DNA of 35,102 bases from Gloeobacterales cyanobacterium ES-bin-141 (GTDB lineage: Bacteria; Cyanobacteriota; Cyanobacteriia; Gloeobacterales; Gloeobacteraceae). Where the stretch lies: positions 1-35,102 of the forward strand of contig JACMIX010000440.1 of NCBI GenBank assembly GCA_014380935.1, read 5' to 3'. A model generated the notes under the pieces. It was not told the origin of the DNA. It did not search any database and was given only the letters and a program-made list of their open reading frames with translations. This document shows positions 19,586-21,394 of the stretch, one piece after another (position 1 is the stretch's first letter; the number at the start of each line of letters is the position of its first letter). A program made the translations under genes and the position numbers.

Positions 19586-20191
19586 TTAACGCAGGGTTAC
19601 AAGAATAGTCTGATTAACGATTCCCTGACCCTGTTGGCTCTGTTGGACTAAGATCCGGTCTGCACCGACTAGCCGCCCATTCAGAAAACCAAGCCCTCCC
19701 CTGGAGGAGACCAGGCTTGTGTAACCCGCGCTCAAACCCCTGAAGTCGATTCGGTTTGTTCCCGGTTTTAGCAGGCGGTTGAGAGGCACTACCAGGCTGC
19801 CACGGTCGGGGTAAAAAGTACGGCCATTGACACGTATGGTCCCACGCAGGGACTGGCCTGGTAAAGCCCGCGCAATCAAGTAGTGGGACGAGGCGCGTAA
19901 ATCCTCCGAATCGAGATCGAAGGCCGAGGTTTGATGGCTCTGATTGATTGCACTGCTGCTCTGGCTATAACTACTTTGCTGCTGGATAACGGAGCCTGAA
20001 TCACTCCAGTTGGGGGTGGTGCGGATGCGGGACTTGCCATCTACAACCGAGACGCTGCTGCTGCCGGTGTTCACTCGCACGTCTCCATGACCGCCTACCT
20101 GCACAGAGACCTGTGCCTGGGCCGCATCGATCGTGCCGAGCCTACTTACTAAGGTCAGAGCAGCAAGTAGCCAGTACAGGTATCGGCTCAT
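19586..20191 (-). CDS. Secreted protein with Ser/Gln-rich linker, last gene of a four-gene cluster
   Basis: I do not recognise the family. A 201-residue precursor has a signal peptide of about 27 residues ending AAQA. The next part is VSVQVGGHGDVRVNTGSSSVSV, an alternating beta-type sequence. A Ser/Gln-rich linker (SVIQQQSSYSQSSSAINQS) follows. The C-terminal half (about 95-201) looks like a compact beta domain: RGTIRVNGRTFYPDRGSLVVPLNRLLKPGTNRIDF. A very strong SD, AGGAGGG, lies before the ATG. It is the largest and most domain-like member, so an anchoring or nucleating role for the smaller Gln-rich proteins upstream is a reasonable but untested guess. Confidence 0.65.
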   Translation of the reverse strand: MSRYLYWLLAALTLVSRLGTIDAAQAQVSVQVGGHGDVRVNTGSSSVSVVDGKSRIRTTPNWSDSGSVIQQQSSYSQSSSAINQSHQTSAFDLDSEDLRASSHYLIARALPGQSLRGTIRVNGRTFYPDRGSLVVPLNRLLKPGTNRIDFRGLSAGYTSLVSSRGGLGFLNGRLVGADRILVQQSQQGQGIVNQTILVTLR

Positions 20192-20226
20192 CGTGTACCC
20201 TCCTATAGACCGGACAGAAGTTTGCT

Positions 20227-20601
20227 TTAGTTTTTGCCAGGGTTATTTTGAACGCCCCGCCCGTCGCGGCGGTTGAGGAAGGAATTTCCCCGAGCGCTAC
20301 CATCGAAGCGAAATTGACTGCTCTTGGCCAGACTCTTATCGGGAATATTCACCTGGGTACTCTTCACAACACCTCTGTAGTTGTCCGGGACGTAGATGTT
20401 GACGGCCTGGGATTGTTGAATGGACTGGTCGAGTACCTGAACTTGATTAGTGTCACCTGTACCACCGCCGGCGTACTGTCCCTGAGAACCGTTGTTGGCT
20501 GCCGTTTGCGTTTGAACAACTGGGATGACAATTCGATCGGCGTAGGCCGGTGCAGCAATCCAGACTGATAGGACAAGAAGTGAGGGACCGATGGCTTTCA
20601 T
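20227..20601 (-). CDS. Small secreted Gln/Asn-rich protein
   Basis: Unrecognised 124-residue precursor. A signal peptide (MKAIGPSLLVLSVWIAAPAYA) is followed by IVIPVVQTQTAANNGSQGQY, a Gly-rich turn, DQSIQQSQAVNIYVPDNYRG, and a basic Asn/Gly/Arg-rich tail ending NNPGKN. GGAG lies eight bases before the start. The N-terminal mature part distantly resembles the QTxVG repeats of the two preceding proteins, but no complete repeat is present. The 35-base gap to the next gene and the shared strand suggest one operon. Confidence 0.65.
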   Translation of the reverse strand: MKAIGPSLLVLSVWIAAPAYADRIVIPVVQTQTAANNGSQGQYAGGGTGDTNQVQVLDQSIQQSQAVNIYVPDNYRGVVKSTQVNIPDKSLAKSSQFRFDGSARGNSFLNRRDGRGVQNNPGKN

Positions 20602-20702
20602 AGGGAAAACTCCAGAAGGGTGAGAAATGGGGAGCCGGTTTGTCCGACTCCCACAAGCAACGAGAGGAGAAACACGACAGGCTTCAATTTGCTGGCCTGG
20701 AC

Positions 20703-21032
20703 TCAGGGAGCCAGGTCTGGCAGAGCTAGCTGGATTTGCTGACCGTTCTGCACGCCCACCCCGGTCTGAACGTTAGGGGAGACTCTGATGTTCTGGGAAC
20801 CGGGGTAACTGTATGTACTGCCCCGGCGACCGGACTGGCTGTACTGGTACTGGGGCTGCTGCTGGACGAGGGTACCACTCTGCTGCTTGACCCCGAACCC
20901 CAGCTGAATTTGTTGAGCATTCTGGACACCGACAGCAGTCTGGACGTTGGGGCTTACCTCGATGCTGCCGGCTTCAGCCGCACCTGCCATCAAGACCAGC
21001 ACAGTCAGACCACAGAAAACACTACTACGCAT
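20703..21032 (-). CDS. Small secreted Gln-rich repeat protein (two repeats)
   Basis: A 109-residue precursor with signal peptide MRSSVFCGLTVLVLMAGAAEA. The mature part begins and ends with the same unit: VSPNVQTAVGVQNAQQIQL and VSPNVQTGVGVQNGQQIQL. Between them is a Gln/Tyr/Ser-rich linker. About a fifth of the mature residues are Gln. The alternation and regularly spaced Asn/Gln recall amyloid-forming repeats, but the spacing is not that of curlin. The gene begins 11 bases after the preceding gene's stop with AGGGGG as SD, so translation is probably coupled. Confidence 0.7.
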   Translation of the reverse strand: MRSSVFCGLTVLVLMAGAAEAGSIEVSPNVQTAVGVQNAQQIQLGFGVKQQSGTLVQQQPQYQYSQSGRRGSTYSYPGSQNIRVSPNVQTGVGVQNGQQIQLALPDLAP

Positions 21033-21043
21033 GGCCGTCCCCC

Positions 21044-21394
21044 TTAGTAGTTGAAGTTGGGGCGGCTGCCCTGGTTTTGCTTGAGACTGCGCATATCGAT
21101 CAGAGTCTGCTGAGCGCGGCCCAAGGACTCTTGAGCCTGCCTGGATGTCTGGACACCGGCACTCGTCTGCTGAATGTTCTGACCTCTGTAGGAGGGCCGT
21201 GCGTACTGGGACTGCTCCATGTTCTGGACGCTGACACCCGTCTGAAAGCCGCCACCTGACGAGAACTGGTACTGCTCGCCTTGCTGGATGCCGACGGCAG
21301 TCTGGGTAACATCTGCCCGGGCAGTGCCCACAGCGACAATACCCACGAGCAGCGCAATACCCAAGACCTTACAAGACGCGGACTTAAAATGCAT
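21044..21394 (-). CDS. Small secreted Gln-rich repeat protein (three repeats), first gene of the cluster
   Basis: A 116-residue precursor. ATG 21394 is chosen over the track start at 21427 because GGAG lies seven bases upstream and a normal signal peptide follows (MHFKSASCKVLGIALLVGIVAVGTARA). Three degenerate units follow: TQTAVGIQQGEQYQF, FQTGVSVQNMEQSQY and QQTSAGVQTSRQAQE, with start-to-start spacing of about 20 and 25 residues. A more polar helical-looking tail ends NFNY. The units clearly share ancestry with the two in the next gene. Exported, probably to the periplasm, cell surface or sheath. Function unknown. Confidence 0.7.
   Translation of the reverse strand: MHFKSASCKVLGIALLVGIVAVGTARADVTQTAVGIQQGEQYQFSSGGGFQTGVSVQNMEQSQYARPSYRGQNIQQTSAGVQTSRQAQESLGRAQQTLIDMRSLKQNQGSRPNFNY

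Follow-up and report, generated by a model that had tools for sequence, protein, structure and literature searches.

The four consecutive genes g1 to g4 lie in the window, the whole 35,102-nucleotide stretch of the Gloeobacterales cyanobacterium ES-bin-141 that was analysed, and form a real and conserved gene set that the databases searched do not describe and that extends further than the initial annotation had seen. Related sets occur through much of Cyanobacteriia. On the sequence features described below, we give about an even chance to the set exporting small Gln/Asn-repeat proteins via Sec that would build a beta-rich, curli-like fibre or matrix.

Beyond type IV pili, little is known of the fibres and matrix proteins of cyanobacteria, and within the literature searched EbfG was the only amyloid case found in cyanobacteria. 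A conserved set found both in the earliest-branching lineage and in numerous others would make the building of sheaths, mats and biofilms accessible to genetic tests, and might represent a second, CsgG-free way to curli-like fibres.

Gene set and repeat unit

All four genes were found consecutively on one strand, each with a signal peptide and a Shine-Dalgarno (SD) sequence, as the initial annotation had described (Table 1). Each starts with ATG (4/4) behind an SD of GGAG/GGGGG type, and the intergenic gaps measure 11 bp (g1/g2), 101 bp (g2/g3) and 35 bp (g3/g4). The signal peptides, judged by eye, are Sec-type with AxA-like ends (ARA-DV, AEA-GS, AYA-DR and AQA-QV in g1 to g4, respectively). 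Gln accounts for 21% of the mature chain in g1 and 23% in g2, in line with the fifth estimated earlier, and for 13% in g3 and 9% in g4. A tRNA-Ser gene (19542-19455) lies downstream of the set and an ABC1-kinase gene upstream.

Table 1. Features of the g1-g4 locus, in window coordinates.
Feature	Coordinates	Strand	Description	Evidence
g1	21394-21044	minus	116 aa, secreted	ORF, signal peptide, SD, repeat test, orthologues
g2	21032-20703	minus	109 aa, secreted	ORF, repeat shuffle test, orthologues
g2-g3 spacer	20602-20702	minus	GC-rich hairpin and conserved stretch	
g3	20601-20227	minus	124 aa, secreted	ORF, profile homology to g1 and g2
g4	20191-19586	minus	201 aa, secreted	ORF, AF2, family profile

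The g1 product carries three half-units (QTAVGIQQGEQYQ, QTGVSVQNMEQSQ and QTSAGVQTSRQAQ) and that of g2 two near-identical units (NVQTAVGVQNAQQIQL and NVQTGVGVQNGQQIQL). The best 15-residue self-match scored 66 in g2 (shuffle maximum 45; 0/1000 shuffles) and 36 in g1 (4/1000 shuffles), and the best 15-residue match between g1 and g2 scored 46 (1/1000 shuffles), which places the related repeat units noted in these two genes above shuffled controls; sequence rich in Gln readily gives spurious similarity, for which shuffling controls only in part. The third product has a single diverged copy of the unit, followed by a conserved AVN-Y-P and a variable basic tail. Profiles of the mature chains (signal peptides removed) were compared against controls whose columns were shuffled 40 times, giving scores of 31.7 for g1-g2 (shuffled maximum 14.8), 31.3 for g1-g3 (14.9) and 29.3 for g2-g3 (13.4). 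Since both comparisons with g3 exceed their shuffled maxima, this gene has a full, more diverged unit, and the "only a trace" of the motif previously ascribed to it was too low an estimate.

In relatives of g2, Gln-Gln distances of 2, 4, 6, 10 and 12 are enriched and those of 5, 7, 11 and 13 depleted, an even spacing that places the Gln residues of a strand on a single face. The corresponding peaks are at 6 and 10 in g1, at 2 and 10 in g3, and at 4, 13, 17 and 21 in A9, a repeat-protein family of the wider set. The strand motif of curlin is N-x-hydrophobic-x-hydrophobic-x-Q (PMC10192328); counted with N or Q in first position, it is enriched in g2 (22 versus 7.8) and g1 (15 versus 8.5) and not in g3 (4 versus 3.6).

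The fourth product consists of an N-terminal VSVQVGxxGDVxVxT motif, a Ser/Gln linker and a C-terminal beta domain (approximately residues 83-201). Its AF2 model has beta structure over residues 81-201, where 10-residue block means of pLDDT range from 65 to 92. A Foldseek search against the PDB returned 501 weak matches, including GH2 enzymes and the pilus adhesin Cpa, and none had an E-value below 0.001. The N-terminal motif matches family A11 over 24 columns, with a score of 27.8 against a shuffled maximum of 14.3, which suggests that two partners, separate elsewhere, are fused in g4. Between the mature profiles of g4 and g1, the score was within shuffled controls. In ES-bin-313, g4 encodes 102 aa (L025 9065-9370) without the beta domain and keeps the signal peptide, the N-terminal motif and the last strand.

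The description of the system as undescribed was upheld in the family collections searched, as none of g1 to g4 reached the cut-off of a family in Pfam, NCBIfam, PHROGs or PADLOC. By sequence, the profiles of g1 and g4 found no significant relatives of solved structure, and no description of the set was found in the literature on Gloeobacter amyloid, cyanobacterial curlin or curli-like proteins and G. violaceus loci. An origin from phages or plasmids was considered and rejected, with tblastn of g2 against phages and of an A9 protein against plasmids giving no match and PHROGs and PADLOC matches also absent.

Distribution and divergence in Cyanobacteriia

G001-G005 are members of the same family as the source genome (G000, 529 contigs), and G006 is a member of the same order. 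The order g1-g2-g3-g4 is kept in all six Gloeobacteraceae genomes (G000-G005), with a shortened g4 in G002, and G006 has g1-g2-g3 as far as the contig end; the set is absent from two further genomes of the order (G007 and G008). Among distant cyanobacteria outside the order, G027 carries two clusters and G062 carries one cluster and an extra unit-bearing gene. The g1 and g3 profiles match an identical set of genomes (9/390 Cyanobacteriia). Orthologues of g2 within Gloeobacterales are 54-66% identical, and the repeat unit is strictly conserved across distant genomes. The synteny check proposed in the initial annotation thus came out positive in Gloeobacteraceae, G027 and G062.

Between close Gloeobacter genomes, dN/dS of g2-g4 is mostly 0.08-0.20, and g1-g4 are under purifying selection; together with the gene order conserved elsewhere, these ratios identify them as real genes. 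G001 and G005 have a 13.7-kb syntenic block in common. Identity in 500-base windows is mostly 91-98% there, and g2-g4 form the divergence trough of the block at about 81-91% identity, with a dN of 0.11 in g4 versus 0.009-0.018 in flanking genes. Either an exposed structure or allelic exchange could account for the trough, which is as expected of a surface structure. The dS of g1 (L024 7361-7702, L026 7695-8036 and L028 8482-8823) is unusually low between Gloeobacter genomes, at 0.025-0.080 versus 0.24-0.62 for g2-g4.

The g4 profile matches 49/390 Cyanobacteriia genomes, and the A9 profile 42 genomes. In 31 of the 32 genomes that have both, A9 lies within 5 kb of the g4 domain; nine of the 32 had supplied A9 sequences, so the fair linkage count is 22 of the 23 others, many of them from one genus (g82). 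Because A9-type proteins adjoin the g4 domain in this way, there is a far more widespread gene set of which g1-g4 are the Gloeobacter form. The conserved gene order and this linkage also dispose of the possibility, raised earlier, that homologues are never linked. Small secreted Gln-repeat genes were found beside a g4-type beta-domain gene, the arrangement that defines membership, and g4 stands alone in a few of the g82 genomes. Beyond the first nine genomes, all 13 g4-type neighbourhoods listed of 20 have at least one gene for a small secreted Gln/Asn-repeat protein nearby on the same strand, and these 13 also contain the Cys-bearing family A8 and often A11.

Mature profile scores were 27.7 for A9-g1 (shuffled maximum 15.6) and 37.2 for A9-A7 (15.0), marginal for A9-g3 (17.6 versus 15.4), and within shuffled controls for A9-g2, A7-g1 and A8-g3. 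On the last of these scores, homology of g3 with A8 was rejected. No A8 was detected in genomes carrying the Gloeobacter form; repeats and g4 domain are thus common to both forms, and the third family is not.

Some of the wider loci have further features. A 97-aa repeat protein is encoded three times, in near-identical tandem copies, upstream of the g4-type gene at L101 3224-4429. A further secreted family, with a Gln/Asn/Ser-rich start, an NTLDASNVTV-like middle and a heptad-like tail, follows the cluster at L096 8015-8512, L097 3028-3597, L098 4576-5079, L103 4225-4722 and L123 2053-2604.

Proposed assembly and alternative readings

The assembly, export route and location of the g1-g4 products are what we infer from these features. 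Small low-complexity Gln/Asn-repeat proteins would be exported through Sec and, once past the inner membrane, would assemble into a curli-like fibre or matrix rich in beta structure, in which the units might stack as a polar zipper, with the Gln residues of short strands facing one side and Gly/Ser/Pro forming the turns. The g1 and g2 products would be the main subunits and g3 a putative variant or capping subunit, while g4 is a candidate folded accessory that may act as anchor, nucleator or chaperone. An outer-membrane exporter other than CsgG would be encoded elsewhere, or a general secretion route may be used. This reading is suggested by the signal peptides, the repeats and mature-chain homology of g1-g3 and the conserved order, by the spread of the g4 domain, its linkage with A9 and the A9-g1 homology, and by the strand-face Gln spacing, the QxGxxN core in A7, the dN/dS values and the divergence trough at g2-g4. 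Against it stand the number of units per chain (1-3, fewer than in curlin), the lack of a significant fold match for the g4 domain, and the fact that no exporter or chaperone gene was recognised beside the set among the neighbours scanned. The AF2 model of g1 is unfolded or disordered (mean pLDDT 45, 9-row alignment) and may be either uninformative or an argument against a monomeric solenoid. A more specific proposal, which we hold tentatively and rate somewhat below an even chance, is a class-wide cyanobacterial functional amyloid that would be related to neither curli nor Fap, would already be present in the Gloeobacter lineage, and would use a repeat code of its own and CsgG-free export.

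The set shares with curli small Sec-exported proteins with short repeats, regular Gln/Asn and several paralogous subunits per cluster, and within the wider family the A7 branch also has the QxGxxN core (19 occurrences versus 1.7 expected). Nevertheless, CsgG (PF03783) is absent from all nine genomes with the Gloeobacter form (G000-G006, G027 and G062; control genomes matched), which extends genome-wide the earlier observation that no csgG-like export gene is present; among the wider carriers, 3/15 have CsgG, away from the cluster. The curlin repeat (PF07012) had no match in the genomes with the Gloeobacter form or in ten proteins of the wider set, and CsgC, CsgE or CsgF were not recognised locally. 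Gln residues are spaced at 11 and 22 in Escherichia coli CsgA/CsgB and at 6 and 10 in g1/g2 (4 and 17 in A9), so the spacing is indeed not that of curlin. Moreover, the g1 and g2 families do not follow the minimal curlin repeat X6QxGx2Nx10 with Gln 11 apart, the QxGxxN core occurring 0 times in the g1 family and once in the g2 family and being enriched in g3 and A7 only. Unlike curli, the set combines 1-3 units with a beta-domain partner. Thus, it resembles curlin in logic and differs in spacing, with common ancestry a low-rated candidate. Curli membership was rejected on the absence of CsgG, the unmatched PF07012, the spacing, and g1/g2/g3 profile scores of 13-19 against CsgA/CsgB, roughly where shuffled controls also fall. 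A strongly diverged curli system with homology to CsgA/CsgB, towards which the enriched core in A7 and g3 and a weak A7-CsgA profile score (24.6) would point, is already largely refuted by the same observations and highly improbable.

EbfG proteins have double-glycine leaders, and FapC of the Pseudomonas Fap fimbriae is an exported subunit with imperfect Gln/Asn-rich repeats, a feature in common with g1-g3. As with g1-g4, EbfG1-4 of Synechococcus elongatus PCC 7942 are a cyanobacterial four-member cluster of small secreted proteins, three of which gave an amyloid signal while the fourth was negative and matters for biofilm (PMC9981879). However, the leaders of g1-g4 are hydrophobic and Sec-type, with AxA-like ends by eye in place of a double-glycine leader, and the amyloid hotspot reported for EbfG2/3 (PMC9981879) is unlike the g1-g3 unit. 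Fap (FapC; PMC3792158) is a further near parallel, but g1-g4 lack a recognised Fap-like operon beside the cluster, and neither the FapF porin nor FapB/FapC was recognised among the neighbours scanned.

Two other readings dispense with amyloid fibres or with export from the cell. The products may be exported disordered polymers that attach to the polysaccharide sheath or act as spacers in it, with the g4 beta-sandwich binding sugar or the envelope, and the disordered AF2 model of g1, the Ser/Gln-rich linker of g4, its weak fold matches to GH2 enzymes and Cpa, and the surface-like divergence at g2-g4 are all consistent with such a filler. Nonetheless, strand-phase Gln spacing and a unit strictly conserved across distant genomes exceed what a disordered filler needs, and we regard this explanation as rather unlikely. 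The set might otherwise be a periplasmic envelope module, either a scaffold or a stress protein set, with repeats mediating protein-protein contacts, since a Sec signal is all that is visible, no outer-membrane exporter was recognised nearby and CsgG is absent. Fast local divergence at g2-g4, which is typical of exposed proteins, and the curlin-like repeats of the wider family argue against a periplasmic location, to which we give little credence.

The g2-g3 spacer

A CTGTCGTGTTTC-like stretch directly follows g2, and the start of the spacer is kept in six genomes. A GC-rich hairpin (GGGAGTCGG...CCGGCTCCC) lies 3' of this conserved CTGTCGTGTTTC stretch and is a possible attenuator or processing site. 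A structured RNA was rejected for the spacer, as its fold z of -1.45 is not significant alone and an Rfam family match was absent. In some relatives, the hairpin after the CTGTCGTGTTTC-like stretch differs in sequence. The stretch just before g1 is also highly conserved between Gloeobacter genomes.
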